Positions 16,939-38,871 of a DNA stretch of 44,584 nucleotides are shown here, in pieces. The notes under the pieces are model-generated. The model was not told the DNA's origin. It made no database searches and worked only from the letters and a program-made list of their open reading frames with translations. How positions within the stretch are numbered: the first letter of the stretch is position 1; the number at the start of each line of letters is the position of its first letter. Origin of the DNA: Clostridiales bacterium (GTDB taxonomy: Bacteria > Bacillota > Clostridia > Christensenellales > Pumilibacteraceae); NCBI GenBank assembly GCA_022508365.1, contig JAFLVH010000006.1:1-44584 (forward strand). The letters run 5' to 3'. Both the position numbers and the translations under genes were made by a program.

Positions 16939-16958
16939 AATTCTTAATTCTTAATTAA
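16939..16958. repeat. TTCTTAA repeat at the end of the AAA+ gene
   Basis: Two and a half TTCTTAA units overlapping the stop codon of the AAA+ gene; same family as the other heptamer arrays at gene ends. Confidence 0.6.
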
Positions 16959-18106
16959 AAGTCTTCGTACGTCTTTAATAGCTCCGCGGTGATGGCTGGT
17001 CTTAGCTTTTTGAACGCTTTTTCAAACATGTCGCGTCTAAGCGGAATGGGACGCGTAAGTCCCTTTGCCTGCATCTCCTCCAGGGCAAGGCGGCACGCTT
17101 CCTCTATGACGCCGCAAAGGTCGGCCGCGGAATAGTACAAGCTTGTCACCTTTACGTTGGTGCCGGGCACCGTTGTCTTTGTGCAGGCCTCGCTCATTTC
17201 CAGCACGTCCTCGCTTGTTATGCCGTCAAGCGCTATATCCTTCAGCTTGCCCTCGATGATGGCGCGCTTTGCCGTGATATCGGGAGGCGGAACGTGCACG
17301 CGGTGCGAAAACCGCTTAAACCGAAGATACGCGGGGTCGATGACGTCCGGGCGGTTGGTGGCGGCAATTATTATGCGCTTTGCGCCGTTTACGCCAAAGC
17401 CGTTTATGCGCTGCAACAGCTCGGTTGTGACCGCCGCTTTATAGTCCTTGGTGTCGGCAGTGCGCTTACTGAATATGGATTCGCACTCGTCGACAAACAG
17501 TATAGCGCCGTCAGCGCACGCGTCCATCTCGTCAAACAACTGACGGACAGCCTGTTCCGACTCGCCCACGTACGACTTGAAAATGTCGGCGGGCGTGATG
17601 ACAAACAGCGGAAGCTGCAGTTTGTTGGCTATTGCCTCGGCAAACATGGTTTTGCCTGTGCCGGGCGCGCCGTACATAAGCATGCCGAGACCGCCCTCTA
17701 TCTTGTAGTACTTGATTATATCGGGGTTTTGCGCGATAAACACAAAGCTTTCCACAAGTTTTTTTACGTTGTCCAAGCCCTTGACGTCGTCAAACGTGGT
17801 TTTGGGCACGGTGTGGCTGACGGACGAGCCGTACTCGGTAGCCTTTTTGGACAGCTTTTTAGCCTTGTCGGCGTACTCCTCCGCCTTGACCGCGTCGGTA
17901 TGCCGCTCGGACAGCTTTTGCGCAAACTGCGACGCGCGCAGGTATTCCGTACAAAGGCGCTGCTTGTCCTCGGTGCGAAGATCGCGCTTATCCCTGACTC
18001 CGCCTAATATAGTGCGGATGTTTTCCACCGCCTCGGTGTATTGTTTTTCCAACTGGTCGAGCGACGTCTCGTCGCCGCCCGATGATTTCTTTCCGAATCC
18101 GGACAT
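16955..18106 (-). CDS. Vps4/katanin-clade AAA+ ATPase with MIT-like N-terminus
   Basis: ATP-driven remodelling enzyme of 383 residues; a soluble hexamer is expected. Residues 12-95 form a small helical region resembling an MIT domain. The AAA+ core has Walker A GAPGTGKT (146-153), KSYVGESEQAVRQLF (177-191, typical of the meiotic clade), Walker B ILFVDECES with Asp206-Glu207, a sensor-1 segment IIIAATNRPDVID (245-257) and arginine-finger region RFKRF (262-266) followed by VPPPD. The C-terminus (RPAITAELLKTYEDF) matches the terminal helix of Vps4, katanin and spastin. GAGGAG nine nt upstream sets the start. Last gene of the ten-gene operon, 18 nt behind the helical partner at 18125. Family-level assignment is strong; the ESCRT-like role is inference. 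Confidence 0.9.
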   Translation of the reverse strand: MSGFGKKSSGGDETSLDQLEKQYTEAVENIRTILGGVRDKRDLRTEDKQRLCTEYLRASQFAQKLSERHTDAVKAEEYADKAKKLSKKATEYGSSVSHTVPKTTFDDVKGLDNVKKLVESFVFIAQNPDIIKYYKIEGGLGMLMYGAPGTGKTMFAEAIANKLQLPLFVITPADIFKSYVGESEQAVRQLFDEMDACADGAILFVDECESIFSKRTADTKDYKAAVTTELLQRINGFGVNGAKRIIIAATNRPDVIDPAYLRFKRFSHRVHVPPPDITAKRAIIEGKLKDIALDGITSEDVLEMSEACTKTTVPGTNVKVTSLYYSAADLCGVIEEACRLALEEMQAKGLTRPIPLRRDMFEKAFKKLRPAITAELLKTYEDF

Positions 18107-18124
18107 AGTAACCCGCTCCTCCTA

Positions 18125-18889
18125 TTAAAGAATATCGCTGATATCGTCGCCGCCGCCTACTGCGCCGCCGCTTGCAACGCCGCCGCCGGCGCCCACACCG
18201 GGATCGCCTGCGCCGCCATCGCCGCTACCGCCGCGCTCGATAAGGATTTGGTCAACCATTTTTTCCGCATTGGACGGCGCGCCTGTAGACGGTCCGCCGC
18301 TTTTGACCTCGCGCTTCTTGCTGCGCTCGGCGTTTTTGGCAAGGCGCTTTTGCATCTTGACGTTGGACTTTTGCAGCCCCTCGGTGATGGAAAACGCCAG
18401 TTCCTGGCTGCCCGTCATCATAAACATGATTTGCTTGATTCTGCCGAGGTTGTTGTCTATAGTCCTCTGCATGCGCTTTTTTGCCTTGCGGCGCGCCCAA
18501 AATCCGTGATTGGTCTGCAGCGAGGATTCAAGCGACAGTGCGTTCACCTGCAAAATGTCGTCCATGCAGCTCATGGCGTCCGTTATGCACGACACCGCAA
18601 GGCTGACGTCGGTCAGCATGTCGATGGTGTCCTCCATCTGTATCGCTACCTCCAAAAACGTGAGCAAGGTCTGCGACATAAAGTAGTCCTTGCCGTACTT
18701 TTGGATCATGTCGGCGGCGCGAGTGGCAAGCTGCTCCTTGCGCTTGCCGAAGCTCTTTTTGGAATCCTCAAGCTGACGTTCCTTTTCCGCACGGGCGTAC
18801 TCGTGATCGAGCTCCGCCGCCTGCCTGCGTATGCGCTCGCGGCGCTCCTCGCTTTCGGACATTTCCTGCATTCTCTGATCTTTTGCCAT
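18125..18889 (-). CDS. All-helical protein with ESCRT-III-like layout, probable AAA+ substrate
   Basis: 254 residues. Residues 1-65 are a strongly charged, basic helix; 66-195 form further long helices with a basic patch (WARRKAKKRMQR, 131-142). Residues 196-248 are a Gly/Ser/Pro-rich flexible linker holding one short amphipathic helix (AEKMVDQILIERG, 208-220), and the protein ends in an acidic-hydrophobic tail DDISDIL. A helical core, then a linker, then short C-terminal motifs is the plan of ESCRT-III/CHMP proteins, whose tails bind MIT domains of Vps4. The gene lies immediately before a Vps4-clade ATPase (18 nt) and has its own AGGAGA. No sequence-level family match is claimed; a generic coiled-coil adaptor remains possible. 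Confidence 0.75.
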   Translation of the reverse strand: MAKDQRMQEMSESEERRERIRRQAAELDHEYARAEKERQLEDSKKSFGKRKEQLATRAADMIQKYGKDYFMSQTLLTFLEVAIQMEDTIDMLTDVSLAVSCITDAMSCMDDILQVNALSLESSLQTNHGFWARRKAKKRMQRTIDNNLGRIKQIMFMMTGSQELAFSITEGLQKSNVKMQKRLAKNAERSKKREVKSGGPSTGAPSNAEKMVDQILIERGGSGDGGAGDPGVGAGGGVASGGAVGGGDDISDIL

Positions 18890-18916: not shown

Positions 18917-21900
18917 TTAGAATTTTACGTGTTTTAATACGGCGGATTTAATAGCCGTCTTTTCCGCTTGCTCGTTGTCGAAGTAGTCGTGAATGTAAAC
19001 TCTGTGAAGCGTCCAGCCACGCCCTTCGAGCGAGCACACGTACCGCGCGTTGTAGTCGAAGTAGTCGTACTTCTTTTGCACCGGCATCTCGCACAAAATA
19101 CCGAGCTCGGCGGTCTTTAAGTCCTTGGACAGCACCGCAATGGGTATGCGCACCGACCCGTCCGTGACGCCGTAATTGGTGACAATTCGCTCCTCCGCCA
19201 CGCCCAAGCTCTTTATATAACCTGCCACGGCGGACACAAAGTGCGCGCCCTTGTCGGGCACCGCGGAAACAAATCCGCTGTTAGACCCGGTGTGCCGCTC
19301 CACGCCTGCAAGGTAGTTGCGAATAAATGCTATCCGTTCGTTGCCCACCATCTGCGCCGCGGTGAGCGTATGGATAACCGTCACCTTGGCTTTGGCACGA
19401 GTGACCGCCACGTTGAATATGTTCTTGCCCGTGGCGTCGCGATTGAGCTCGCCGAACGCAAGCTTAATTTTTCCGTTCTTGTCCTTGCCGTACGTGACCG
19501 ACAGAATGAGGTGGTCGGTCTCCTGACCCTGCACGCTCTCTATCGTGCGGTAAAACACCAGCTTATCGGGCACGTCGTCAAAGGTGTGAAGGGCGTGTTC
19601 TATCTTTTTGTTAAGCTCTTTGTCGGCGCGCACAATGCTTTGCACGTGCTTTAGCTGCGCCTCGCCGAATGTGACGACGCCCACCGACATATCGAGCACG
19701 CCCGTCTTTTCGTCGTAATGCCTGTCGAAATGCTCGTTAAGCGCCTTGACCACAGCGTTTGCCTCGACGGGGTTAACGCCGTCCTCGCAATATCCGTCCG
19801 GCGTGAGAACGTCGGCAAAGCCGAGGTCGTCCCCCGTGGGCACCGTTGCCGGGAATGTGCGCATGTACGGATAGAACTCGCGCTGCGAAAACTCGATTAA
19901 GCTTTCGGTCTTGCTGCGGTAGTGGCAGACAAGCTCCTCCGAATCGAACGCTAAATTTCCGAGCGCGAGCGAAAGCGCCGAAATATCGGTGTCCAGTGTG
20001 AGCTCGCTACTTTCGTCGCTTATGCGCTTGCGGTTTTTGGTCTTGAAGTGAGTAAGCGGCGGCATCTGGAACTCGTCGCCCACAAGCACGCACTGGCGGC
20101 TTCTGAACATTACGGGCAGCAAATCCACAGGCTCCAACTGACTGGCCTCGTCCACTATAACCACGTCAAAGTTTTCGTAAAGGTCGCCGCGGAACAATAC
20201 GCTTGCCGTCGACGGCGACAGAATAAAGCATTTTTTAAGCTTGAGTATCGCCTTTGCGTACGTGCGGAACATGACGCGAAGGGACATATTGATACCCTTA
20301 TCCACCGCCAAAAAGTCAAAGTCGTCGTCCTCGGCGTTTATGCGCGCCATGCACAGACTTTCGGTGCGAAGGGCGTTGCACGCATATATCTCGTTTTCCG
20401 CGTCGATAAAGTTGTTGATGGCGTGTTGAGCCGCCTTGCCCAGTCCGTTGCGGCCCTTGAGCCGTGTAAGCTTTTCGCCTATCACAATCGCCATGTACGA
20501 ATGCACAAACAGGTCGGTAAAGCGGTCGGGAGCGACCTCCGCCCTGCCGTCCTCTATGGGCGCGAAAAACGCGGAAAGGAATGCGCTGTCATTCAAAATA
20601 TTTGCGTAGCCGAGCGCGGCGCCGCATGCCGCCCTGTCCTTTGCCTGCGCTATAATCACCTCGCTTTGCTTGGGAGTGATGTTCCAGGGCGACAGATAAT
20701 AAGCGTTTTCAAAATGCTTGACGCCAAAGTCCTTCAGCTTATTCACCACGTGCGCTATCTGCGCGACAAGCTCGTTCTCGCCGCGGAGCACTGTAACGAA
20801 CATCTCCACAACCTGCGCGTTTTTGTTAACCGCAGGCGAATTGTAAATGCGAAGCAGCGCGGCAACGGACTGCGACAAAATAAGCGCGTCGTCCGTGACG
20901 GCAACGCCGCACCTGCCGCACATGGAATTTACCGCTATAGCAAGCTTGTGCTTAGACAGCATTTCCTCCACGGCGGCGATAAACCGCTCTATAACGTAAT
21001 CCGACGGCGCCGTCATAAACTTTGACGTAGCCTCTATTATTTCCACAGCCTCCACGCTCGCAGTGACAAAATCGCGCAAAGGCGCGTCCTTGTCCGTGCT
21101 GTTCTTTACCACAAACAGCACGCACTCGGTCTGCTCCTCCGTCAGCTTGTTAAGCCCTATGACGTGCGCAATTACGCCGGACAAGCCTTCTATCTTTCCG
21201 TCGCACTCGCTGACGCGAAGATACGATTCCGCAGTGAGAGCAAGGTCTTTAAGCGTTATGTCGCTCTGCGAGCACACTGCGCGCAGCTTCTTTTCCGCAG
21301 ACTTCGCCTTAAAGTCGAAAAGCCCAATCGCCTTTTCGTCATGCGCAAACGGAGCGAGCGCCGCGCACGCCTTGAGTAACTGCTGGTCGTTTAACTCAGC
21401 CTTGTCAAACACAAACATTATGTCGGTGGCAAGCGCGTCGCGCTCCACCTTCAGCTTGTACAGATTGTCCGCGGTTTCGGCAAACTTTTGCGCCGCCTTG
21501 TCCGTCATGTCATCACGCAGAAACAGATTGCTGTTACTCGCAACGCGCTTCACCTCGGACAGCTTTAAATCCGTCACCGTCTTTATTTCCGAAACGCGCA
21601 AAAAGCTTGCGTCGGGTTTGCCCTCCGCGCCCTCACCAAATGTAAATTTGTGTGCGCCTGCCTCCGCCTTTGCCCGCTCGTACTTGTCCGCAAGCTCCTC
21701 TAGTAAAATTCCGTCCTCCGCGCCGAGCGTGGTGACTACCTTTACTATATCGCAGCCCTTAAGCGCGTTGGGAAGCGCCGCGTCGTGAAGATCGCCGTAA
21801 GTAAAATCGCGCCACGGCAAACTTGCATGCGCCTCGCTTAGCGCGTTCACAGTCCTGTTTATATCCTTCATGTCCGCGGCTATCGCGCCCAGCGCGTCTA

Positions 21901-23419
21901 TAGCGCGGTCGGTGTCCACGTCGTTATTGACGCCGTACCACGGGCATAAAGTGATATTGCCGAGCTGCGTGTAATATGCGGCGCACTGCTTTACGTCGAG
22001 GAGAAGCTTGTTGTAATCCTCGTGCGATATAGCCGCCGCCGCGCTGCCGTCCGCAAACTCTATCACAGGCAAATCGGCGTCCTTATAGTACGTGTCGAGC
22101 GCGTCGTAGTACGACCCCCAGGCAACGTCCGTGCCGAACACATCTGCCTGATATCCGACAAGCGCAGTCATCGCCTCCGCCTTGGCGCGCTCCGCACGGC
22201 TGAACCTTATGTCAATCTTATTGTCGTATACGTACTCCTTTTTTTCCTTGATAAGCCGCTTGAACTCGGCGCGGATCTCTTGGGGATTGACCGCCGCCGC
22301 CTTTTGCTCGGTCTCGTAGTCCAATAGCATAATGAACTTTCTGAGCGGCTCGGGCATCTTTGCGTACACCTCCGCGAGCGCCGAAAGCTTCTCCGAGGCA
22401 ACAAGCACGCTCTTACCCTGCGCGAGCAGTGTGGAAAGCATGTTGGCGATGGTGAGCGTCTTGCCCGTTCCCGGCGGGCCCTTTATTATAAGCGACTGTC
22501 CTGACGCCACCTTGCTTATTATGTTGTCCTGCACGCTGTCGTTAGGGAGCACCGGGCGCGTAACGACGTCGCCCAAATCTTCCACAGTCAGCTTTTCGCC
22601 GCCGCCAAACACCCTTTGCACAAGCGGATGCGCGTAAATCTTTTGCTTGTTGCGCCTGACGTCGTAGTACATGCATATGTCGCTGTGACTGTACTGCGCA
22701 ATAGTTATAATATCCTTGTCGAACTGCAAGGACCCGTCCGCGCTGTGTGAAGTGACAAACTCCTCGACGCGCCGCATATACTCCTCGCCGCCGAGCAGCT
22801 TATCAAGGTCTATGGCGTCGTCAAAGCTCTGCCCTGCGCCGTTGGGATGCGGAAAGCTCTCCGCCACCGTATCGCCCAGCTCGTCGCGCATGCGCGTGAT
22901 AAGACAGGGATTAAAGAACGCGTCCTCGTCCACAAAATCCACCTCCACCGAGCTGGTGTTGGTGCCGCGGACAAGCCTGATCGGAAATATCAAAAGCGGT
23001 GAATTGACGGAACGTATCTCGTCGCCGTGCGCAACCTTCCAGGTTAGAAGACCCACGCCCAAAAACAGCGGATTGTTACCCTTTAGATCGAGCGCGTTGT
23101 ACGCTGCGGAAATAAACTTATCCAGCGCGCCGGCGTCCGTGTTGCCCGATAAATCCGACCAATCCCACTGCACGTCGAGCGGACTTGCGATAGTTGACTT
23201 GACAAGCGCGCTTTCGCGAAGCACGGTCTTATTGGACGGCTTGCCGCGGCGCTCGGCTATAACCTGCAGCATGGTGCGGCAGTTGTCGCCGTCCTTTAAA
23301 AACAGACGGTATGCCTTGTCCGATCCGCCCACACCGATAACGCCGACGTCCAGCAGCCTGTTGCCGCGAATGTCGTCAGTGTGAAGTAATCCTTTAACAA
23401 ATTCGTCCAAAAAATCCAT
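18917..23419 (-). CDS. Giant SF1 helicase with DUF4011-like N-terminus and nuclease-like C-terminus
   Basis: 1500-residue nucleic-acid motor. The N-terminus (about 85-165) has the PLFLGVGLLTW ... SPLLIFPIRLV pattern typical of DUF4011. Helicase motifs: Walker A GPPGTGKT (314-321), Walker B VIVDEASQ with Asp1090-Glu1091, motif III CVLVGDEFQMPPL, motif V SVQGQETDHLILSVTYG, and motif VI NVAVTRAKAK with Arg1341. A long helical insertion (about 420-1050) separates Walker A from Walker B. The last 110 residues (VRIPIAVLSKDLKTAELGIL ... GWTLHRVYIHDYF) resemble the Vsr/MTES_1575-type restriction-endonuclease-fold domain found in DUF4011 helicases, though active-site residues look incomplete. Related helicase-nuclease fusions occur in anti-phage systems. 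Operon member, 27 nt before the helical-protein gene. Confidence 0.88.
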   Translation of the reverse strand: MDFLDEFVKGLLHTDDIRGNRLLDVGVIGVGGSDKAYRLFLKDGDNCRTMLQVIAERRGKPSNKTVLRESALVKSTIASPLDVQWDWSDLSGNTDAGALDKFISAAYNALDLKGNNPLFLGVGLLTWKVAHGDEIRSVNSPLLIFPIRLVRGTNTSSVEVDFVDEDAFFNPCLITRMRDELGDTVAESFPHPNGAGQSFDDAIDLDKLLGGEEYMRRVEEFVTSHSADGSLQFDKDIITIAQYSHSDICMYYDVRRNKQKIYAHPLVQRVFGGGEKLTVEDLGDVVTRPVLPNDSVQDNIISKVASGQSLIIKGPPGTGKTLTIANMLSTLLAQGKSVLVASEKLSALAEVYAKMPEPLRKFIMLLDYETEQKAAAVNPQEIRAEFKRLIKEKKEYVYDNKIDIRFSRAERAKAEAMTALVGYQADVFGTDVAWGSYYDALDTYYKDADLPVIEFADGSAAAAISHEDYNKLLLDVKQCAAYYTQLGNITLCPWYGVNNDVDTDRAIDALGAIAADMKDINRTVNALSEAHASLPWRDFTYGDLHDAALPNALKGCDIVKVVTTLGAEDGILLEELADKYERAKAEAGAHKFTFGEGAEGKPDASFLRVSEIKTVTDLKLSEVKRVASNSNLFLRDDMTDKAAQKFAETADNLYKLKVERDALATDIMFVFDKAELNDQQLLKACAALAPFAHDEKAIGLFDFKAKSAEKKLRAVCSQSDITLKDLALTAESYLRVSECDGKIEGLSGVIAHVIGLNKLTEEQTECVLFVVKNSTDKDAPLRDFVTASVEAVEIIEATSKFMTAPSDYVIERFIAAVEEMLSKHKLAIAVNSMCGRCGVAVTDDALILSQSVAALLRIYNSPAVNKNAQVVEMFVTVLRGENELVAQIAHVVNKLKDFGVKHFENAYYLSPWNITPKQSEVIIAQAKDRAACGAALGYANILNDSAFLSAFFAPIEDGRAEVAPDRFTDLFVHSYMAIVIGEKLTRLKGRNGLGKAAQHAINNFIDAENEIYACNALRTESLCMARINAEDDDFDFLAVDKGINMSLRVMFRTYAKAILKLKKCFILSPSTASVLFRGDLYENFDVVIVDEASQLEPVDLLPVMFRSRQCVLVGDEFQMPPLTHFKTKNRKRISDESSELTLDTDISALSLALGNLAFDSEELVCHYRSKTESLIEFSQREFYPYMRTFPATVPTGDDLGFADVLTPDGYCEDGVNPVEANAVVKALNEHFDRHYDEKTGVLDMSVGVVTFGEAQLKHVQSIVRADKELNKKIEHALHTFDDVPDKLVFYRTIESVQGQETDHLILSVTYGKDKNGKIKLAFGELNRDATGKNIFNVAVTRAKAKVTVIHTLTAAQMVGNERIAFIRNYLAGVERHTGSNSGFVSAVPDKGAHFVSAVAGYIKSLGVAEERIVTNYGVTDGSVRIPIAVLSKDLKTAELGILCEMPVQKKYDYFDYNARYVCSLEGRGWTLHRVYIHDYFDNEQAEKTAIKSAVLKHVKF

Positions 23420-23451: not shown

Positions 23452-25338
23452 TTAAGAAAAATCTATGGTGCTCCAGTAGGCGTCCAAGCCGCGCTGACAA
23501 TCTATTTCAAACGCGTTGGCGTCCGCCTCGTACATGTGCACCTTGTACACGTCCGAATGGGTGTTGTGATTGTAGATTTGCCGTGTCTCCTTCCACCTGC
23601 ACACCCTGCCGTACGATATGCCCATGTTGTCGTAATACCACTGCGCCCAGTTGCCGCCGGTCAGCTTGCTCTGCAGCGAGTGAAAGCATTCGTGCACTAT
23701 GCAGTCGCGCATCCAGGATATGTTCTTGCATGAGGAAAACAAAAACTCTATGCGCTTGCCGCCGTCGCAGCACAATCCGCCGGCGGTGTCGTTTTCCAGC
23801 TTATCCAAAATAGCCACTTCCGGATTGATGGGCACGCCTAGAATGCGGTAGACCATTTTTACGGCAAGGGTGACGCGGCTTTCCATTTCCTCGCGTTCCA
23901 TTCTGCCCCAAATTGAAACGTCGCCCGTGCCGGTGGTGCAGTAACGCGCCACCATGCCGCACTTGCCGAACACGGTAGCGTTGCTTTCCACTATCCTTCT
24001 GATATTGCCGACGTCGAGCTCCGGGATTCCGTCGTAATCGAATTCGAGGATTTGCTCTACGGTGCCGCCGCCCTTAAAGTCGCCCCAGCCGTCGTCGATA
24101 AACTGGTATGCGGCTTTTATCTTGGACAAGTACTTTTTTGCCGCGGCGGCGTTGGCTGCGGAAATCTTTTTTCCGCGCGTCATCCAGTTGTTGGTGTATT
24201 CCGGACGGACTATCTCGTTGAGCCCCATAAAGCCCAAAAACGGCATTTCCTTAAGCGCCTCGCGCGCCTCGGCGTCCTCCGCCATCTTAAGCGCGACAAG
24301 CTCCTTGACCGTAGCGTCAAAGGACGGCATGGATATGTACGTTGAGCTTATGTCAAGCGCGCTTAAAGTTTCGTCTGACAGAGCCGCGGTCATTGCCGCA
24401 TCGTACAGACTGCCGCCCGACGTATCCAAAATAAAGACCGAAAGTCCGCTTTTTCCGGCGCGCATCGCCGCGCAAAGCATGTACTTTAAATCGTCCTCCG
24501 CCGCAAGCTCCGTACCGGATATAAACACCGCGCATCTTTTGTATTCCGCATAACCGAATATCTTGTCCGAGCCCTCCTTTGCGCCGCCGGCGGCGTTTAT
24601 GTTAAACTCGTACAGCTCGACGTCCTTTGGCACGGCAAATGCGGCGTACAGCCTCGCCTCGTCCGCAAACGGAGTGTTGAGTATAAGCGTATTTGCCTTG
24701 CCGCCCTCGTCGTACTCCGGCATCGGGTAGTAGCTGTATTCGCGGTAGTTAATCTTTTTTGCCGCGACGGTGCGCTCAAGCGATTTTGCGTACGCGCCGC
24801 GAACGCCGTTTAGCCAGCTTTCAAGCGATTCCGCAAACTCGCCCGAGACGGTGGGAAACGCCACGTCCTCTCCGAACGGCGAGGTTATGTTTTCCGTGAT
24901 GTCCTTTACAAGCTCGGCAGCGCTCTTAAGTATATCCCTGCCCTTGGAGGCGAGCAGCGCGTCGCTTTGACAGTGCGCGCTTATCTCCTTTTTTGCCTTT
25001 ATTCGGCTGCAAAACAGCGAAACAACCTCCAACGTCTTTTCAAGCACGGCGGAGCTTTTGTTGTAACCCTTTTCCTTGGCGACGGGCAAATTTTCCTCGA
25101 CAAAGCTCTTTAGCTTGTCCTCCACCGACGCGTCGAATTCCGTAATGCACTTGACGGCAAAAATCTTGCACGCAAGACGCATGCGCAGCGCCTCGGCGTT
25201 TGCCCTGTTGTTTTCGTTGAGCGCAGGGTTTGCCAAAATCTCCTCCAACGAGGCAAGCGCGCTGTCTAAAACGGCAATATCGATTGAATATATGTACTCG
25301 GTGTTGGCGTTTGTAATAACCTGCTTAAAACCTATCAT
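23452..25338 (-). CDS. Putative zinc metallopeptidase (HExxH) with helical N-terminal region
   Basis: 628 residues, not assigned to a named family. Residues 1-180 are helical repeats (TPR-like in feel). A middle mixed domain (about 200-340) contains alternating strands and FISGTELAA and VFILDTSGGS segments. The C-terminal domain carries HECFH (549-553), a perfect HExxH zinc site, followed about 50 residues later by YEADANAFE with Glu604 as the likely third ligand, the gluzincin pattern. No signal peptide, so cytoplasmic. Its start overlaps the upstream coiled-coil gene by 4 nt (ATGA), implying coupled translation and possibly a shared complex. It might process or strip another operon product; no substrate can be inferred. 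Confidence 0.78.
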   Translation of the reverse strand: MIGFKQVITNANTEYIYSIDIAVLDSALASLEEILANPALNENNRANAEALRMRLACKIFAVKCITEFDASVEDKLKSFVEENLPVAKEKGYNKSSAVLEKTLEVVSLFCSRIKAKKEISAHCQSDALLASKGRDILKSAAELVKDITENITSPFGEDVAFPTVSGEFAESLESWLNGVRGAYAKSLERTVAAKKINYREYSYYPMPEYDEGGKANTLILNTPFADEARLYAAFAVPKDVELYEFNINAAGGAKEGSDKIFGYAEYKRCAVFISGTELAAEDDLKYMLCAAMRAGKSGLSVFILDTSGGSLYDAAMTAALSDETLSALDISSTYISMPSFDATVKELVALKMAEDAEAREALKEMPFLGFMGLNEIVRPEYTNNWMTRGKKISAANAAAAKKYLSKIKAAYQFIDDGWGDFKGGGTVEQILEFDYDGIPELDVGNIRRIVESNATVFGKCGMVARYCTTGTGDVSIWGRMEREEMESRVTLAVKMVYRILGVPINPEVAILDKLENDTAGGLCCDGGKRIEFLFSSCKNISWMRDCIVHECFHSLQSKLTGGNWAQWYYDNMGISYGRVCRWKETRQIYNHNTHSDVYKVHMYEADANAFEIDCQRGLDAYWSTIDFS

Positions 25339-30900: not shown

Positions 30901-32066
30901 TAAATCTTGCGGAAGCGCACGGGTACGCCGGATAAGTTTTTGCTCACCTTAGATCCGACAATCGCCGCGCCGCCTGCTTTCAGCTCGGCAAGGATAAATC
31001 CTGTAGTATTGTCGCACGCGTACAAATCCTCGTCCGAGTATATGTCCGAGTGGCGCACGTAATCGACATTCATCTTGTCCAAGCCGAAGGTATCGCCTTT
31101 TTTGCCGTACCAGGTGGGCATAAGCTTGCCTTCCGCCAGACTGTACGCCTCGGAGTCGTAATCGAATGTTACATACACTTCGTCCTTATCAAGCCCCGTA
31201 GGTCTTACCCTGTTGCCGAAGTGGAACGTGTTTGCCATGCCGTTTACCGCGTAATTGTAAAACTTTTGCTTTACTGCGTCCACGTTGTCCTTGTCCACGT
31301 TGAGCACCAGGTTTGTGTTATAAAAGGGATATTTGTCATAATCGGTAAACAGCGCCGCGCTGCTGTCACAGTGGAGCGTCACGTTTTTTATATCGATTGC
31401 CAGCACGTTGGCGGACACCGACGTCACCTTGTGTCCGTTAAACTCGTACGGCACGACAATTGAATCGCCCTTGCCGTTTACCACGCCCGTCACCTCGCAC
31501 TCGCTGTCCGAGGTGTAGTTGTATATTAGCGCGCGCGTATGTCCCTGTCCGAAGTATCCGTCCGCAAACAGCAGCGCAATGTACAGCAATCCTACGCTCA
31601 AAACGATAACACACGGAAGCACCGCCGACAGCACAAGCTGCGCGGGACGCCACTTCTTTATAAGTTTTGCCGCGTATACATAAGTGACAACTGCGGTCAA
31701 AATTCCAAAAGCGTGCAACGTCGTCCACAGCGCCGCAATGCCGCTGCCGAACACGGCGCTGTTTGAAGAAAACGCGCTGATGGCGCCGTAGATGAATACT
31801 AAAAAGTTAAGAATAATGTACAGCAAAAAGAAGCCGCGCGCGTACGTAAAGCGTTGGTTGGATACTATTACGCCCAACAGATAAACCGCGTCCACAATAA
31901 GCATGAGAAACGGCACTATAAAGTATAGCGTGTCTATGCCCGACGACAGAAAAACCGCTACCGCGACAACATCTATGCCGAGCATAATCGACAGCCCGAC
32001 TATCAAAAATATTTTGTATTTGCCGGAAAGCATTTCCGTGACAGGAGAAGTAAATCTGTTTTTCAT
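27975..32066 (-). CDS. Membrane-anchored surface protein with tandem MBG-like repeats
   Basis: 1363 residues. Five hydrophobic helices (about 18-41, 45-68, 77-98, 107-133, 142-169) with positive loops on the N-terminal side place the rest outside the cell. Residues 178-290 resemble a BspA-type leucine-rich-repeat unit (SDSECEVTGVVNGKG ... VVPYEFNGHKVTSV). From about 570 to 1310 there are ten repeats of 70-90 residues with the consensus V-x-W ... x-YSG-x-x-x-PTA ... NVGNNYTATA ... KNYTI ... FSI, the MBG-type beta-sandwich of bacterial surface proteins. No sortase or S-layer anchor; the tail is Lys/Glu-rich. GAGG five nt before the ATG. Unusual partner for helicases and AAA+ proteins; it may link the machinery to the envelope. 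Confidence 0.85.
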   Translation of the reverse strand: MKNRFTSPVTEMLSGKYKIFLIVGLSIMLGIDVVAVAVFLSSGIDTLYFIVPFLMLIVDAVYLLGVIVSNQRFTYARGFFLLYIILNFLVFIYGAISAFSSNSAVFGSGIAALWTTLHAFGILTAVVTYVYAAKLIKKWRPAQLVLSAVLPCVIVLSVGLLYIALLFADGYFGQGHTRALIYNYTSDSECEVTGVVNGKGDSIVVPYEFNGHKVTSVSANVLAIDIKNVTLHCDSSAALFTDYDKYPFYNTNLVLNVDKDNVDAVKQKFYNYAVNGMANTFHFGNRVRPTGLDKDEVYVTFDYDSEAYSLAEGKLMPTWYGKKGDTFGLDKMNVDYVRHSDIYSDEDLYACDNTTGFILAELKAGGAAIVGSKVSKNLSGVPVRFRKIYKVYTASSNDSKYDVTKHFTYSVVDGKKLDYKLTVSDNADRILDCFDRGAAFTHIVRKKVGSVWGETVNSLSQALVSGEGSDITISPYYSLVSPQVTLSQVGGKEDVVYGDDFSLTATVTHVLDTFDFDCTWFLSGTYVRKADTLEQRAKTIGTGDYTASVTVTAPEVTSLSASTTAAIGVDVVRRPLTVEWTDPVDNVYNGMEKTVTTKLLNTIAGDSIGLDYSTFTRIDAQTYTFTATLGGTAADNYYIGTGETHAFTIMPRPTAIVWNDDTVFTYDGQPHHPTATAMGINSVPLNLSYGGARTDANAKTGIKYVAVVSIPDTNYTIDADSEWTKEFTINQKQVGANWGNTELTYNGSAQAPTASAMDVGGQEMILSVNGARREANAMSGEEPYTATAYASDKNYIVNERETTTFTIAQFGLKVQWYNTSRTYSGGAQKPTALANDVNGQPITLDVNMDGGEAVDVGSDYKATAVVPNKNYIIALNAQTDFAITKYELTVTWTNTTLTYSGDEQLPKAEARGATGQSVSLTVTGGGTEVGGNYTAYAAIKEAKDIQNYSIKAGTESRGYVINPYGITVTWGQTSNVYSGDGWAPTASATGPKGEPVTVTVLGRQINVGNNYEATATVSDKNYTIASGSTCTFSITPYELTVTWENLTFTYSGEPQAPTASAIGVKNQSVTITVSGGQTNVGNNYTATASVNDKNYTIASGGTQQFSIMPYGVTVKWDEDSFLYYNGSLQAPTASATGPKGENVKLIISGGRVDAGEGTASAEIDNNPNYVIASGKTHSFSIHRLDIGVEWSNTLLTYNGTVQVPTATASGMIGNDRVIVTGGQINAGIDYRAKAVVPNNNYVIILGEDTTFVIQRKTVTVSIDDVTIEYGDKPTYTFTAVGIEDVDKATVSVKCSISYTADGDGNIPSGSYDITANIDGDVNFNYDIEVTKHGKLTVKPAPEQKEKVQTQSALPVTAKKEETI
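28080..30360 (-). repeat. Tandem repeats encoding MBG-like domains
   Basis: About ten units of roughly 210-270 nt within the surface-protein gene. Nucleotide similarity is highest among the units encoding repeats 5-8 (about 28.6-29.4 kb) and lower at the ends, which suggests expansion by unequal crossing-over. This makes the stretch prone to length variation and assembly error. Confidence 0.75.
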
Positions 32067-32073: not shown

Positions 32074-33705
32074 TCACTTTACCTTTTTAGGCTGGTCTAT
32101 ATATCCGCTGTCCTTGGCGTCCAGCTTGCTGAATACGTACCTGTCTTTGCCCAGCTCAAAGATTATTACCGTGCTGTCTTCCCTGCAGCTCTTTTTGGAG
32201 AAAATATACTTAAGCCGCACGTTGGGACTGAGCATTCCGCGATATCTCTTGTACAGCTTTTTGCCTTCCTCGGTAAAGCCTATGTCGCCGCAAAGCCTGC
32301 AATATCCGTTTTTGCCGGTGTGCTCGCCGTAAGTCCTGCCGCAGCACTTGCACTTTTTAACCTTGCCGTCGGTGAGCGTAAACGCCTGCTCGTCAATGTT
32401 TAGCGTGGAGGTAAGCCTGCCGCCGTCGCCCTCCGCAAAGATGTTGTAATATACCACTTCGGGATACGGGCAAGCCTTGCACTTGCGGATTACCACGCCG
32501 TCGGCGTCCGTGTATTCTACCGCCTGACGCGCGCAGATCAGCTTTTGGCAATCCGCGTTCCTCGAATTTTCGCGACACTCCACCTTGAACAAGTGTTCGG
32601 AGATGACCGCCTCGCTCTTTATCTTTTTTATGTCGTCGCCGTCCAGCCCGAGGGTGACGGAGGAAAAATCAAGCCGCATGCCTTGCGAACCGTCGCCGAA
32701 CAGGACGTTGTTGTTGTCCACAAGCAGCACGCCGTGATGATTGCAGTTGGTGCAATACAATCTGATATTGTTGTTAAGCCCGACTATCATCTTTAACACG
32801 TTGTGACCGCCGATGCTGACCGCATACGAAAAGTTTTGCCATTCCACGTGCGAAATGCCCAGCACCGTAACGTGCGTACACTCAAGCTCCTTCTCGTCGC
32901 TGGTCGCAAGCATGTTCAGCATTTTTTCTATCTTTTCCAGATAGCCGGCGTTGAACATGATATAGTCAGCGCTTGACTCGTCCTCAAACACGCTACCCGC
33001 CGCGTTCAAAACCGCGCCCACAAGCTCGCCGTCAACCAGTTCGCTCGAACCGCCGCCCTTTTCATCGGACGGCACCGCGCCGTTTATGTAATCGTCTATG
33101 CCCTGCGCCTCCGCACGGCTGATGGGCACATATTTGCCGTCCGGGCTTACTCTAAAGTACACCTTGCCGAGCACAGGCTCGGACTGTGCGCCGCCGTTTA
33201 TCTCCAAGCGCATTGACACGGCATAAAAGTTTTCCGGCTCTATCGTGTACCTATCGGATACCGAAAACGGCGCGTCGATAACGCGCTTTAAAAATCCGTC
33301 CGAAAACCGCTTTACGGCAAACGCCACGGCGCCGCCGTCCTTGGCGAGCCTGCTGTCCGCCGCCTGCTTAAACTCTATAAGCGAATAGTATTTGTGGTAG
33401 TCCGCGCTTACGTCCGAAATAAGCTGCTCCCAGTCCGCGCTGCTGCTGTCAAAGCTTTCGCCGCGAAGGGAGGCAAACCAGCTTGCGCCGCCGCTTTTAA
33501 ACGTGAGCTCTCCGCCCTCGCCGCCGCTTGCGCCGTTTACGCCGTGTTCGTTCGGACAGTAAACAAACTCGTTGGTCGCCGTGACTATCATATTGTCGGT
33601 GACACGCTTTATGTTTACCTTGTCGGAAAGAAATCCATTTTTAAAAAGACTGCAAATACTGTTGAACTCTTTTTCGTATTCGCAACCGATGTTTATCCTC
33701 GCCAT
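32074..33705 (-). CDS. Multi-zinc-ribbon protein of unknown function
   Basis: 543 residues. The N-terminal half (1-250) is alpha/beta without known motifs. The C-terminal half has several cysteine pairs: C318/C321, C386/C391, C409/C412, C452/C455 and C469/C472. The last two pairs form a classic zinc ribbon (CKCCGRTYGEHTGKNGYCRLCG). The segment VEWQNFSYAVSIGGHNVLKMIVGLNNNIRLYC could be a beta-rich insert. No enzyme motif is visible. It starts 3 nt after the SNF2 helicase gene ends, with AAGGAG six nt before the ATG, so it may be a helicase partner that binds nucleic acid or ubiquitin-like/zinc modules. Confidence 0.78.
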   Translation of the reverse strand: MARINIGCEYEKEFNSICSLFKNGFLSDKVNIKRVTDNMIVTATNEFVYCPNEHGVNGASGGEGGELTFKSGGASWFASLRGESFDSSSADWEQLISDVSADYHKYYSLIEFKQAADSRLAKDGGAVAFAVKRFSDGFLKRVIDAPFSVSDRYTIEPENFYAVSMRLEINGGAQSEPVLGKVYFRVSPDGKYVPISRAEAQGIDDYINGAVPSDEKGGGSSELVDGELVGAVLNAAGSVFEDESSADYIMFNAGYLEKIEKMLNMLATSDEKELECTHVTVLGISHVEWQNFSYAVSIGGHNVLKMIVGLNNNIRLYCTNCNHHGVLLVDNNNVLFGDGSQGMRLDFSSVTLGLDGDDIKKIKSEAVISEHLFKVECRENSRNADCQKLICARQAVEYTDADGVVIRKCKACPYPEVVYYNIFAEGDGGRLTSTLNIDEQAFTLTDGKVKKCKCCGRTYGEHTGKNGYCRLCGDIGFTEEGKKLYKRYRGMLSPNVRLKYIFSKKSCREDSTVIIFELGKDRYVFSKLDAKDSGYIDQPKKVK

Positions 33706-33708
33706 GCT

Positions 33709-36600
33709 CTACTCCTTCCTCTCCCCGTCGTGCTCGAGAATTTCCCTTACGTCGGACACAATCCCCGCCTGATCGCCGAGGTTTTTGCAGAACCCCTCGC
33801 CGCCGTCATGGTCAAACTTCCACAGCTCGGACACAAACGTAGCAAAGGTGCGCGCAACAACAGGTCTTAGCTTGCCGTGATTGTAGCGCGATCCGCAGCC
33901 CGGCATGGGACAGTCCGCCTCCCACTTGTCGTTGAATTCAAGCGCGTGAGGCTTGGGGCTGCAGCCGGCGTACTCGCAGTCCGAGCAGCGTCCGCCCTCG
34001 CCCGGTTCGCCCACAATCTGTTCCTTGGGGAGTCCGGCTATCTTGCACTTTTCCCAGCAATCGGGGTTGCCGCACATGGCGCATATTCGCATTAGGTCAA
34101 CGTCGGAAATATTGCCGACCTCCCTGTACCTCTTTAGCACCGGGCATTTGCCGTACATGTATCCGCCCTTGTTGAACCTGCGGCAGTGCGATATTGCGCA
34201 GATTTTGCGGCAATAAATGGACCTGTCGCCCTTTTCGCCGGAGTTGCACATTCTGCCGCGCTCGCCGTTTTCCACGTTGGACAAACACATATAGCCTTCC
34301 GACACCGACCGCGTCAGCACCGTGCCGCAGTTGTCGCACTTAAAGTCGTAGACGGTTATCTCGGACATCTCCGTGCCCTTGCCGTCCATGCCCTTGCACT
34401 GCGGTTCTGCGCTGCATATAACCGCGCCGTACTTTTTGCGCTCGTCGTCGTACGCCTCTTTGGACATTAGCTTAACACGCCCGCACGCGTTGCAGCGGAG
34501 CGCCACCATCTGGTCGGAGTTGCTGCCGGCAAGAATCGTAGCGTCGCCACTGTTGCCCGAAAGCAAGCCGATCTGCGCAAAGTAAGAAAGCGCAAAGCCC
34601 TCCAGCTTGCACATGTCCGCAAGCGAGTATACTATGACGTCGTTCTTTTGCCCGAGACGGAATATACGGCCTATACGTTGATCCATGGCGAGCGGATCGT
34701 ATGTAACCTGATAGTTGATTATTATGCTCGCCTCTTGAAGGTTGGCGCCCTCGGTGTACTTGGCGTCCTTTACAAACAATATCGCATTTTTACGTTTTTC
34801 GCTGTTGAATTCGCGCTCCACCGCTTTTACGTTGGTGTCGCCGTCGCCGATAATAATCCTGTCCTTAAGCTCGGGATCTTTTAGCATCTCCTCGCATACT
34901 TCGTCGTAAATGCGCTCGTTCTTTGTAAGATTGTAATCGAAAAATATGAGTACGCGCCTGTCCTTATGTTCCTTCAGTATTCTTACGGCTGTCTCGTACT
35001 TGTGATCCTTAATCCCCATTGACGGCGGCACCGGCACAAAGTACGACCGCTTGGCAACATCCTCGTGCGTGTCGCGCAACCGGTCCGCATAATACTGCAA
35101 ATATCCTAGCTTTGTATGTATGGTATCTATTTTCTGATCGCCGGCGGAAAGCTCGTTGAGTATGCCGTTTACTATGTGCGCATACGCCTGCTCAAACTTC
35201 ATGCGACCGCGCAGATTGCTTACGTAGCTCGTCAGCGGCAGAGTTTCGCCGCCAACCTTCACCGTGGCGTCGCCCGTTTTGAGCGCGGCGGAAAAATCCA
35301 CCGTTATCTTCTTTTCGCCGAGCCCGGTTATCTGTACGCTATCCGGCACGCTCGACATGTTATAAAAGAAATAATTGTATACCGTTTTGGATTTGGAAAG
35401 CTGATTGGGCTGACGGATCATTATGGAGCGCAACACACCGTTGTGGTACGCGTCCGATACGCGCTTTAGCACCTCGTCCCTTATCTTTTGATGTCCGGGT
35501 GCGCCCAAAAAGTCCTCTATATACTGTGCACGGTCGTGTTGGGCAAGCTCGTCAAACTCGTCCGCCATGCCGTTATCTTCCAGAAATTCATAGAACTCGT
35601 CGGAAAATCTCTGCATGACCACCGAGTCCTTTACCTTGCGAATAAAATCGGTTATGTTGGTCGCACCGTAGCACACAGTGTCCTTGTAGTACTGCTTTTC
35701 CTCCACGTACTGCGCCGAGCGGTCGGCGTCTTCCTTTTCGTCAAAGTCGGAAGGATTGCCGCCCTTGCACCGCACAAAGTACCACAGCCTAAACATGTTT
35801 TCCAAGTTGCCGGAATGCGGCGTAGCGGTCAGCAGCAAGCAATACGTCGCGCCTGCGCGCTTTTTGGTCTGCATCATCTCGGACATCATGCGCATAGCGC
35901 CCGCGTACTTGCCCGCGTCCTCGCTGAAGTGGTGCGCCTCGTCCACAACCACCACGTCCACAAGAAAGTTCTCGCTGTACCGCCACTGCGCAAAGATATC
36001 CACGTCCACCAATATCGGGCGTTTTGGGCGGATAAACTTGCCCTGCTTAGTGACGCCCACCTCGCTCAAAACGTCCTGCAGCGTGGGATATTTTTCGTCG
36101 TCCTCGCTCTTTGTAACTTTGTACAGCACGCCCTTGCCGATGCCGAATTTATTTTCCATTACGTCCACCCAGCTGCTTAACACCTGGTCGGGCGCGACTA
36201 TCATAAGCGACTTCATCTTGCCGCGCACGGCAAGCTCGCTTAATATAACGCCCGCCTCAAAGGTTTTGCCGCTGCCCACAACGTCGGCAAGCAGACCGAA
36301 GCCGCGGAGGTCGCGCAAAAACTTTTCCGCCGCCTGCTTCTGGTGCGTGCGTATTACATCGCCGCTTTGATGAATATCTTTATCATAAGGAATGCCGTAC
36401 TCCGATTTACCCTTTCCGCGCGTGTAGTGCTCCGGAGCTATCAAAAGCTCGTGAAAGTCATCGTGGCTGTCAAGCGCTTCCACGCTTTGCTGCGCCTCCG
36501 CAACCTGCCTGGTAAACTTCTTTTTGTACTGCAGGTTGCTACGCTGAATGTCGGCGGAAAATGCCGAGTCCGCAAATGTAATCTTATACTTATCTTCCAT
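33709..36600 (-). CDS. SNF2-type SF2 helicase with cysteine-rich C-terminal region
   Basis: DNA/RNA translocase of about 963 residues. Walker A DVVGSGKT (106-113), DEAH box VVVVDEAHHF (Asp220-His223), motif III LLTATPH, and the C-terminal RecA lobe with INYQVTYDPLAMDQRIGRIFRLGQ (motifs V-VI) place it in the SNF2/RapA-like group. The last 270 residues hold more than twenty cysteines in CxxC-type pairs, probably zinc fingers, unusual for this class. Start: AGGAGG lies 14 nt before ATG 36600 and only 2 nt before an in-frame ATG at 36612; I prefer 36600. Longer readings up to 36687 would translate the dispersed hairpin element and are rejected. Operon member. Confidence 0.87.
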   Translation of the reverse strand: MEDKYKITFADSAFSADIQRSNLQYKKKFTRQVAEAQQSVEALDSHDDFHELLIAPEHYTRGKGKSEYGIPYDKDIHQSGDVIRTHQKQAAEKFLRDLRGFGLLADVVGSGKTFEAGVILSELAVRGKMKSLMIVAPDQVLSSWVDVMENKFGIGKGVLYKVTKSEDDEKYPTLQDVLSEVGVTKQGKFIRPKRPILVDVDIFAQWRYSENFLVDVVVVDEAHHFSEDAGKYAGAMRMMSEMMQTKKRAGATYCLLLTATPHSGNLENMFRLWYFVRCKGGNPSDFDEKEDADRSAQYVEEKQYYKDTVCYGATNITDFIRKVKDSVVMQRFSDEFYEFLEDNGMADEFDELAQHDRAQYIEDFLGAPGHQKIRDEVLKRVSDAYHNGVLRSIMIRQPNQLSKSKTVYNYFFYNMSSVPDSVQITGLGEKKITVDFSAALKTGDATVKVGGETLPLTSYVSNLRGRMKFEQAYAHIVNGILNELSAGDQKIDTIHTKLGYLQYYADRLRDTHEDVAKRSYFVPVPPSMGIKDHKYETAVRILKEHKDRRVLIFFDYNLTKNERIYDEVCEEMLKDPELKDRIIIGDGDTNVKAVEREFNSEKRKNAILFVKDAKYTEGANLQEASIIINYQVTYDPLAMDQRIGRIFRLGQKNDVIVYSLADMCKLEGFALSYFAQIGLLSGNSGDATILAGSNSDQMVALRCNACGRVKLMSKEAYDDERKKYGAVICSAEPQCKGMDGKGTEMSEITVYDFKCDNCGTVLTRSVSEGYMCLSNVENGERGRMCNSGEKGDRSIYCRKICAISHCRRFNKGGYMYGKCPVLKRYREVGNISDVDLMRICAMCGNPDCWEKCKIAGLPKEQIVGEPGEGGRCSDCEYAGCSPKPHALEFNDKWEADCPMPGCGSRYNHGKLRPVVARTFATFVSELWKFDHDGGEGFCKNLGDQAGIVSDVREILEHDGERKE

Positions 36601-36620
36601 TTTTTTAAACATGACCTCCT

Positions 36621-36748
36621 TTTGAGAGTACAGTCGCGCGTCAGGTGGGTAACAGGTGGCAAGTTGACGAAGGGAGTGTAGACCCACCTACATGACCGAG
36701 GCAACTTGTCACACGTAGCCCGCATCACGCGATGAATGCACTTTCAAA
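36621..36748 (-). repeat. Dispersed hairpin element, copy A
   Basis: 128 nt filling the gap between the Hsp70-like and SNF2 genes. The ends TTTGAGAGT and ACTTTCAAA are near-perfect terminal inverted repeats, and the whole unit folds into one long imperfect hairpin. The apex core, on the minus strand, is GTAGGTGGGTCTACAC. Copy B (40998-41125) has the same length, core and 3' end (ACTCTCAAA) in the same orientation. The element lies immediately before the ribosome site of the SNF2 gene and could affect its translation. Confidence 0.8.
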
Positions 36749-36759: not shown

Positions 36760-38793
36760 TTAAGTCAACTGCGTTTCTATCTTAAACTTAAAGTCTATGT
36801 CTTTCTTGGGCACGGTCTCGTACGAACCTGCAGGGAACTTTGCAAACGGGTCGGAATATTGCGGCTTACTCGGTCCCCGCCCGTCTAAATACTCTATCTG
36901 CGTCGTGCCTGTGCCGTTTCGCCTTAGGTCGTTTTTTGCATAAGCGCGCGCATAGCCCTCGCCGTCTATCTCAACACCCAGCTTTAGGTAAACCTCTTTT
37001 ATGATGCGTACAGGCCTGCCGTTGTAAAAATACGTTGCGCAGCTGTTTCCGCCTGTGCCGTCCTCGCTGTCGTTGAGTATGCGCAGTCCTACGGACTTTT
37101 GCAGCTTTTTAAGCATATTCTTGTTGTCGGTGTCCACAACCAAAAGATTTTCGTTGCCCGACTTAACATACGTGACCGCCGGTGCGCCGCGCGAATGCTC
37201 TATGTCCTGCGCGGAGTAGAACGTGCTCATGATCTGCAGCGCCGCCGATTCCGACGAATTGTCGCCGGTGGTTATGCCGTGCTGTTCGCTGTCCTTGGGC
37301 GTGTAGTATTCGGCGCCCGACTGCGGAATGTGCGTGCCCTTGTCCACCAGCACGCGGAAGAACGGAATTACGTTGTTGCCGCTTACGCGGAAAAGCCGCA
37401 CGCCGTAAGTCAGCGCAAGCACCATGTCTATTGTTATGTCGTTCATGGACGCAACCGCACAGCCCAAAACGGGCGCATACAGCGCGTCCTCGTGGCTCAT
37501 TATGTTGAAGCCGTCGTTTTCCACGCCTATATAATCTTCGTCGGGCTTTTCAAAGGTAAGCACCTTTACGCCCAGCGGTTCGATAAATCTTTTTATGTAC
37601 TTTATCAGCCCGTACGTCTCAACGGGTCCGCCTGTGATGAAAATCTTTTTTACGTCGTTGTTGATCTCGCGCGACAGCTCGCCCTGAATGTATTGCACTA
37701 TTTTGTGCGCAATTCCGTTGCCGTCCTCTATGCCGATGCAATGCTCAAACTCCTCGCGCGTAATGTACCGCTGTATCAAAAGGTCGCGCGATGCGGAAAT
37801 CGGTACGCCGTAGCGAAACGCGCGGCTCTCGTATATGGGCATGCCCAACACCATCTTTGCGGACTTGATGTCCTTGACAAACAGATATTGCTTGGTGTTA
37901 AGCGCGCTTTCCGCAAGGTGCCCCTCCTCGCCGCTGGGCGGACGGCCCATAGTTTCACGCCCGGACATCTGTCCTTCTATGTACCGCGCGACGGCGTCGT
38001 CTATGTCCTTGCCGCCGATTGGCGCAGGCTCGCTATGCCCGTCCACGCCGTCCACCGAAATGCCGGAGCCCGAAAACGTCACCTTAACAAGCGAAATGCG
38101 CTCCTCTCCGATGTTGAATATAATGGACTTGTCGTTTTTTGCCATGCGACCGGAGAACTTGGCGTAGGCGCACAATGCCTTTGCCATACTCATCACCGTT
38201 TGCGGCATGACGCCGAACGCGTGCTTTACAAGCCGTTTAAGCTCCTCAACGTATTCGCTGTCCGAAAACGGCGGATATACAAGAGACGGCACGATTTGCG
38301 GCACGTCCGAATCCTTAAACAGCAACTCAAGCCGACTCCTGACAATGCCGTAAACGTATGCGAAAAACATCTCGCACACCTCGGAGGGCGTCCTGTCGGC
38401 GGAAAACGTTCTGTCCATGCGCTTGGCCGCGTCGATATCGTCCGTCAACACGTTGCGGACGGGAAAGTAAAACTTGGGAAACTCGTTCCGTTTATAATAG
38501 TAATTTCGGTTGCTCTTTTGTGTCGCAACGGACGCGGCGGGCTGCAAAAGCCTAAGAAGATCGCAAATTTTTACAACGGTAATAAACGGCTTGTCGCCTA
38601 CAGAGCTAACCTCATCGCCGAACAGCCACTTTTTGTCGTCAACGTCGTAGTACGCGACGGAAGGAATGGCGGTCATCGTAAGCGGATCGCCGACAATCTT
38701 GCCGGTGTGCTCCTCCCCGTCGTTGTACGCATACGCGATTTTAATTGTGTCGCTACCCAGGTCGAGCGCGATGTGTACCGAATGCTTTGCCAT
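36760..38793 (-). CDS. Hsp70/actin-fold ATPase, divergent
   Basis: 677-residue protein of the Hsp70/actin/hexokinase ATPase superfamily. Phosphate-1 motif ALDLGSDTIKIAY (9-21), a degenerate phosphate-2 segment IIFNIGEERISLVKV (224-238; DLGGGT of DnaK is replaced by FNIGEE), AESALNTKQYLF and FITGGPVETYGLIKYI (adenosine motif, 385-400). The C-terminal 200 residues are not a standard Hsp70 substrate domain. First gene of the ten-gene operon; its AAGG ribosome site is 6 nt upstream and a perfect consensus promoter lies at 38843-38871. Likely a chaperone-like or assembly ATPase for the other operon products, in line with orphan Hsp70s found in other large multi-gene systems. Function not proven. 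Confidence 0.85.
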   Translation of the reverse strand: MAKHSVHIALDLGSDTIKIAYAYNDGEEHTGKIVGDPLTMTAIPSVAYYDVDDKKWLFGDEVSSVGDKPFITVVKICDLLRLLQPAASVATQKSNRNYYYKRNEFPKFYFPVRNVLTDDIDAAKRMDRTFSADRTPSEVCEMFFAYVYGIVRSRLELLFKDSDVPQIVPSLVYPPFSDSEYVEELKRLVKHAFGVMPQTVMSMAKALCAYAKFSGRMAKNDKSIIFNIGEERISLVKVTFSGSGISVDGVDGHSEPAPIGGKDIDDAVARYIEGQMSGRETMGRPPSGEEGHLAESALNTKQYLFVKDIKSAKMVLGMPIYESRAFRYGVPISASRDLLIQRYITREEFEHCIGIEDGNGIAHKIVQYIQGELSREINNDVKKIFITGGPVETYGLIKYIKRFIEPLGVKVLTFEKPDEDYIGVENDGFNIMSHEDALYAPVLGCAVASMNDITIDMVLALTYGVRLFRVSGNNVIPFFRVLVDKGTHIPQSGAEYYTPKDSEQHGITTGDNSSESAALQIMSTFYSAQDIEHSRGAPAVTYVKSGNENLLVVDTDNKNMLKKLQKSVGLRILNDSEDGTGGNSCATYFYNGRPVRIIKEVYLKLGVEIDGEGYARAYAKNDLRRNGTGTTQIEYLDGRGPSKPQYSDPFAKFPAGSYETVPKKDIDFKFKIETQLT

Positions 38794-38842
38794 GTCAGCC
38801 CTTTGTCGTCCTTTGTAGAATATTTATAATATCCCTGCTAAA

Positions 38843-38871
38843 ATTATATCACTAATACGTCATGTTGTCAA
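38843..38871 (-). promoter_or_regulatory. Perfect consensus promoter of the ten-gene operon
   Basis: Minus strand: TTGACA (38871-38866), 17-nt spacer, TATAAT (38848-38843), an exact sigma-A consensus. Expected start near 38836, giving a leader of about 43 nt before the Hsp70-like gene. No operator-like palindrome is evident. Such a strong promoter suggests steady, high expression. Confidence 0.8.

Follow-up and report, generated by a model that had tools for sequence, protein, structure and literature searches.

What do the ten genes that run in one direction along contig JAFLVH010000006.1 of a Clostridiales bacterium (assembly GCA_022508365.1) encode, and do their products act together? In this study, we analyzed a 44,584-nucleotide stretch of this contig (hereafter the window), in which ten open reading frames (ORFs) on the minus strand, named g10 (the 5'-most transcribed) to g1 (the last), extend from position 38793 to 16955. 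An earlier sequence-only reading had proposed that they form one machine with a role in biological conflict. We show that the one-machine proposal is well supported and that the ten genes comprise an eight-gene core and a detachable pair. As to function, we lean, by a modest degree, toward a horizontally transferred, single-transcript machine that defends the host against phages or other mobile elements by a membrane-anchored mechanism.

The layout is that of a single operon, as the sequence-only reading had described it: the ten same-direction genes, their tight spacing, the strong promoter and the terminator were all confirmed. The spacing is between -4 and +32 nt at every junction except g10-g9, with gaps of 3 nt (g9-g8), 7 nt (g8-g7), 16 nt (g6-g5), 32 nt (g4-g3), 27 nt (g3-g2) and 18 nt (g2-g1), and with overlaps of 4 nt at g7-g6 and g5-g4. 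The g10-g9 gap measures 72 nt if g9 starts at a GTG and 147-159 nt from the ATG codons at 36612 or 36600, either of which, adjoining an AGGAGG, is the likelier start. A sigma-70 promoter on the minus strand (38843..38871; TTGACA, 17-nt spacer, TATAAT, with the TG of an extended -10 element) matches the consensus at 12 of 12 positions and precedes g10. The terminator, a hairpin and T-rich run read by eye on the same strand at about 16880..16912, follows g1.

The arrangement exceeds chance by far, since these genes recur in one order in dozens of genomes. A g1 profile run against about 85,000 genomes of bacteria and archaea yielded 79 loci, and the set and order of the cassette recur in about 70 loci with two to three architectures, almost all in uncultured carriers. 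Clostridia, for the most part uncultured organisms of Christensenellales-like lineages, make up the hosts, joined by some Bacilli, Erysipelotrichaceae and Acholeplasmatales. The loci examined repeat these genes in unchanged order, at 75-80% identity within the genus of the window and 25-40% in other families, and g2 lies directly upstream of g1 in nearly all sufficiently long g1 loci. Searches for g10 had homologues in 14 of 81 relatives, and those for g8 in 21 of 297 genomes searched in the order, while a g8 search of 398 genomes across the phylum found the window alone; within the genus, g8 and g10 co-occur in the identical 10 of 20 species. Pairwise divergences are correlated across all genes (r 0.71-1.0), although host phylogeny accounts for part of this. 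In a digester Clostridiales (L099), seven core genes are kept in a rearranged locus, as blocks g5-g2-g1 and g10-g9-g8-g7 up to the point where the contig ends, which indicates that linkage outlives the loss of operon order. Neither independent occurrence of the genes nor an order unique to one genome was seen, and the conserved order, the co-occurrence of g8 and g10 and the correlated divergence together uphold the proposal that the ten genes form one machine. A fragment consisting of g10-g9-g8-g7-g6 alone, beside hrcA-grpE in genome G050, was considered as a further variant and judged to be a truncated remnant. Two observations concern the genes around these loci: in L099 a CvpA-like membrane gene (Colicin_V family, E 2e-16) has been added beside g1, and three loci of ruminant-gut Clostridia (L114, L118 and L119) share an identical set of six genes downstream of g1.

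The ten-gene unit originally proposed needs one correction, since g3 and g4 are separable from the other eight. In type A loci g3-g4-g5-g6 lie upstream of g2, whereas in type B loci g5-g6-g7-g8-g9 take this place and g3 and g4 are missing. Type B loci arise at least two times in the g1 tree, the pair being lost or gained together, and the pair is absent in at least three lineages. One of them is represented in the genus of the window by G019, in which g2 and then g1 follow g5 after 86 nt; g4 was not found in this genome, which is 82% complete, nor in the six further type B genomes in which it was sought. The two genes thus behave as one detachable, accessory pair. The protein encoded by g3 (18917..23419) combines DUF4011, a superfamily 1 (SF1) helicase and a C-terminus of restriction endonuclease (REase) fold. 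It matches PDC-S37 in PADLOC at E 3e-116, and it scores 387 of 1500 bits against ProA and 264 of 2000 bits against Hhe in NCBIfam, both below cut-off. Its helicase motifs are intact; the REase-like motif is degenerate (RIPIA...LGIWCE) across 48 homologues, and the residues that it lacks are catalytic ones. The g4 product (23452..25338), which travels with g3, is a putative zinc peptidase of the HExxH...E type: HE..H.xQ and E.DA..F are conserved across 51 homologues, which favors the peptidase label first given to it, although no family or PDB match was obtained and a profile search found no solved relative.

The cassette also moves. In the window it is flanked by housekeeping genes, with a V-ATPase operon, rpiB and Sua5 on one side and PGK on the other. 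Seven same-genus genomes carry it on the PGK side as in the window, with Sua5 on the same contig in five. A complete empty site, in which PGK is followed by the counterparts of the window genes at 39069 and 16114 and then by Sua5, is found in at least four sister species (G003, G006, G016 and G018); the flanks in G002, G010, G013 and G014 are likewise cassette-free, with the 39069 gene not clearly called. Other species hold unrelated genes in the PGK-Sua5 gap, namely a glycosyltransferase with a two-component pair in G017 (L152) and a sigma-factor-like gene in G001 (L151), which marks the gap as a variable spot. Two members of the genus (PGK 82-83%), G014 and G018, carry a different version of the cassette at another site. 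This version is more distant from that of the window (g9 41%, g1 59%) than is the copy of G053, which belongs to another family (48% and 66%), and the cassette thus moves horizontally. Moreover, the Acholeplasmatales copies nest among those of Clostridia in the g1 tree.

Among the core proteins, family searches gave solid support to the labels first proposed for the two helicases, g9 and g3, and for the AAA+ protein g1. The g9 product (33709..36612) is an SNF2/DEAD double-stranded DNA translocase of the DrmD/BrxH/DpdE type, identified by PADLOC matches to BrxHI and DrmD and by NCBIfam DrmD; its helicase motifs are all invariant among homologues, and many cysteines are clustered toward its C-terminus. 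Next to it, g8 (32074..33705) encodes a 543-aa multi-zinc-ribbon protein with at least 10 invariant cysteines, which gave no match in Pfam, PADLOC, NCBIfam or PDB and no solved relative in a profile search; on sequence evidence, it is a new multi-cysteine family. The 677-aa g10 product (36760..38793) is an Hsp70-like ATPase of the ASKHA type, in which a nucleotide-binding part and a part resembling a substrate-binding domain can be recognized by eye. The motifs DLGSDTIK, FNIGEE and ITGGPVET are conserved, with the usual phosphate-2 Asp replaced by Asn, and speak for the Hsp70-like assignment made from the sequence, whereas the matches to HSC70/DnaK in PDB are co-linear but weak (E 0.14-0.5).

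The surface protein of the sequence-only reading corresponds to g7 (27975..32066), in which five N-terminal transmembrane (TM) helices, a pattern present in 27 of 29 homologues, anchor a large ectodomain of MBG repeats (MBG_3, E 7e-7). Given the positively charged N-terminus and the five helices, this large domain would lie outside the cell. It is long, its length and repeat number vary between homologues, and g7 is the fastest-evolving of the ten genes, with the lowest mean identity within the genus (53%). The remaining two core proteins of this part of the operon are g6 (26875..27978), with an N-terminal CxxC..CxxC zinc ribbon and Sel1-like repeats, and g5 (25335..26858), a long-helix, coiled-coil protein that gives one marginal match in PADLOC 2.0.0.

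The last two genes had been taken for a Vps4-like pair. The architecture of g1 (16955..18106) fits this description, with an MIT-like N-domain, a classical AAA core and a Vps4_C-like end, but the ATPase core appears nearest to p97/Cdc48 D2: a single-domain p97 D2 leads among the PDB chains listed, and NCBIfam places CDC48 (145.6 bits) before CdvC (135.3 bits). The Walker, sensor and arginine-finger residues are invariant, and the pore loop, KSYVGESE, is aromatic. Vps4_C was detected in 41 of 59 g1 homologues (best 3.2e-7), the copy in the window reaching 19.0 of the 21.3 bits called for. Modelled alone, the N-domain folds as a three-helix bundle (predicted local distance difference test, pLDDT, 75). 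MIT domains occupy ranks 1-2 in Foldseek at E values of 0.55 and 0.68, which are not significant alone, and they fill 15 of 50 VIA rows, the best of these MIT rows being the archaeal CdvC domain 2w2u (Z 9.7, root-mean-square deviation 2.9, 75 residues aligned). Small helix bundles match widely, and many that are not MIT domains score in the fold search too. An MIT-like N-domain is therefore suggested by the model.

Its partner g2 (18125..18889) is modelled as three long helices followed by a flexible Gly/Ser/Pro linker and a C-terminal tail, D.I.DIL. The tail or a close variant is present in 83% of 65 unique homologues, compared with 2% of shuffled tails, and in some type B loci g5, too, closes with a tail of this kind (I.DIV). 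By analogy, g1 and g2 make a suggestive Vps4/ESCRT-like arrangement, with the pattern expected of an AAA+ protein that reads C-terminal tails. We do not claim that g2 is an ESCRT-III protein: profile searches and Pfam returned no Snf7, ESCRT-III or PspA match, and the fold model matches BAR/eisosome and PspA-like coils weakly. Some observations on more distant relatives touch on this pair. The partners in four divergent loci (L121-L124) resemble ESCRT-III by eye, with nothing significant in profile searches, and two of these (L122 and L124) have two paralogous coiled-coil ORFs of about 225-258 aa upstream of g1. In L125, a g1 paralogue adjoins a 1125-aa ORF in a different operon, which may represent a second system that employs this type of AAA+ protein.

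How might such a set of proteins work? We propose that g7 anchors the machine in the membrane and displays its rapidly changing ectodomain outside the cell, while the coiled-coil proteins g2 and g5 would assemble inside it. The MIT-like N-domain of g1 would bind the C-terminal tail of g2, and in some variants also that of g5, and g1 could then pull subunits through its pore, remodelling or recycling the assembly in the way that Vps4 acts on ESCRT-III. The Hsp70-like g10 and the zinc proteins g6 and g8 may hold or license the complex, and g9 would move along DNA or DNA-protein complexes that enter the cell; type A loci would add the g3 helicase and the putative g4 peptidase as an effector pair. 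Defense appears the likeliest function because the two helicases are related to anti-phage proteins, the distribution is patchy, the cassette is transferred and the surface protein is hypervariable. It is a more tentative and rather doubtful step to see here a bacterial Vps4/ESCRT-like remodelling module, in which an MIT-like AAA+ protein reads the C-terminal tails of long-helix filament proteins, built into an immune machine that is anchored in the membrane, translocates DNA and detects phage at the cell surface.

Several findings weigh against the defense reading. The cassette was found only in Bacillota and Mycoplasmatota, a narrower range than that of most defense systems. About 5 of 99 neighbor genes of the cassette loci have strong PADLOC matches, a figure that has no control set beside it; we therefore rejected a defense-island context, and the defense genes that the sequence-only reading had suggested looking for among the neighbors are mostly not there. 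The assignment to biological conflict remains plausible but indirect: g3 and g9 are kin to proteins of known anti-phage systems, and the cassette is an accessory one that passes between lineages, but the neighborhood does not add to it. PGK of carriers at the main site is 93-94% identical to that of the window where measured, compared with 92% or less in non-carriers, so that at this site the cassette looks, most simply, to have been acquired once in the genus and passed down from there. By themselves, the fold matches to MIT domains and coiled coils fall short of significance (Foldseek E >0.07). Finally, the degenerate motif of g3 makes its nuclease domain look inactive, which leaves the cassette with no certain killing enzyme.

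A rival reading is an envelope function unrelated to phage, i.e. ESCRT/PspA-like membrane repair or the display or secretion of a surface protein, in which the AAA+ and coiled-coil proteins would remodel the membrane around g7 and the helicases would act in regulation or nucleoid tethering. The 5-TM surface protein, the BAR/PspA-like helical protein, the MIT-like AAA+ protein, the housekeeping neighborhood with few defense genes and the vertical inheritance within a subclade would all suit such a machine. However, half of the genus and most of the order do without the cassette, which is therefore not essential, it moves horizontally, and its products include a DNA translocase and, in type A, a helicase of anti-phage type; we regard an envelope machine as unlikely. 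Somewhat less probable still is that two independent modules are co-transferred with no single complex, one for defense (g9-g8-g10, optionally with g3-g4) and the other for surface display and remodelling (g1-g2-g5-g6-g7). The separability of g4-g3, the two blocks of L099 and the isolated g10-g9-g8-g7-g6 of G050 could be read in this way, but neither architecture splits the eight core genes, L099 keeps seven of them up to its contig end, divergence is correlated across all genes, and the G050 locus looks like a remnant. We give very little credence to the cassette being the cargo of an integrative element that it serves by stability or exclusion rather than by host defense. Its patchy presence and absence at the same site and its transfer between classes are what such cargo would show, yet there is no integrase or conjugation gene among the window ORFs scanned with Pfam, g10 matches nothing in collections of phages, plasmids or viruses, and the plasmid matches to g9 are not near full length, covering at most 64% at about 25% identity.

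If the machine is one of defense, as we favor, it is not one of the systems to which its parts are related. PADLOC 2.0.0 recognizes pieces of g1, g3 and g9, besides the marginal match to g5, and a gene set of this composition was not found there or in the open-access papers searched, in agreement with the initial statement that no described system has it. Like DISARM (DrmD), BREX (BrxHI/II) and Dpd (DpdE), it is a multi-gene operon with a helicase of the broad SNF2-type group of g9. In DISARM, DrmB sits beside DrmA, to which the cysteine-rich g8 beside the g9 helicase can be likened; however, the ten proteins have no DrmB, DrmC, DUF1998 or methyltransferase match, DrmA is a weaker match to g9, and g9 scores 127 bits against a DrmD equivalog cut-off of 610. 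No match to the PglZ phosphatase or the BrxC ATPase of BREX was found among them either. The plan of g3 is shared with ProA, Hhe, PDC-S37 and Mokosh, but here the protein is accessory to a larger cassette, scores beneath every equivalog cut-off and has an REase-like motif that is degenerate family-wide. The score of g1 against IetA is 106.5 of 510 bits, and the cassette has no match to a subtilase (IetS). In Zorya, a membrane-anchored sensor works with a cytosolic SNF2 helicase, and g9 weakly matches ZorD; the likeness is one of analogy, as the ten proteins have no ZorA/ZorB or MotA/MotB match and no ZorC. The Vps4/CdvC and ESCRT-III systems resemble g1 in its domain plan and g2 in its long helices, linker and tail motif, and differ in the points of ATPase core and partner sequence given above, in addition to which g1 and g2 are bacterial and set among helicases. 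The CoCoNuT and TerY-P-associated type IV restriction systems share with the cassette an Hsp70-like protein, coiled coils, zinc ribbons and a helicase (PMC11090510). CoCoNuT is defined by a McrB-type NxD GTPase (PMC11090510), and neither a McrB GTPase nor McrC, a vWA kinase/phosphatase triad or a HEPN domain was found in the cassette. The gene set thus appears new as a combination; taken singly, its folds belong to known kinds, and its function is putative.

Some other features of the window deserve mention. The repeat element noticed in the largest gap of the operon (36620..36748, strand unassigned) is real, with 7 other near-full-length copies in the genome at 75-91% identity plus a few fragments. 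It is about 128 bp long, dispersed and an imperfect palindrome, similar to miniature inverted-repeat transposable elements or repetitive extragenic palindromes and apparently undescribed, and we do not count it as a working part of the cassette, within which an Rfam scan found no RNA. Convergent with g1 lies a conserved plus-strand gene (16114-16887) that has no Pfam match and is 39-49% identical in 10 of 10 genus genomes examined at the site; the minus-strand ORF at 16104-16727 is its shadow. A fluoride riboswitch (RF01734, 50 bits; 40658-40730, minus strand) heads a gene of the Na+/H+-exchanger family (39421-40704), and this placement suggests that the gene is fluoride-controlled.

A 2024 survey noted that many ESCRT components have known homologues in archaea but, PspA/Vipp1 apart, not in bacteria (PMC10936438). 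If our reading of the g2 tail and of the MIT-like domain of g1 is true, bacteria would have in these two proteins their own counterpart of ESCRT and Vps4. More broadly, a conserved machine of eight to ten genes that matches no catalogued defense system as a set would bring a new type of multi-component system to light in the poorly studied Clostridia of the gut, in which the separable g3-g4 pair and the hypervariable g7 offer genetic handles on the effector and sensing roles.

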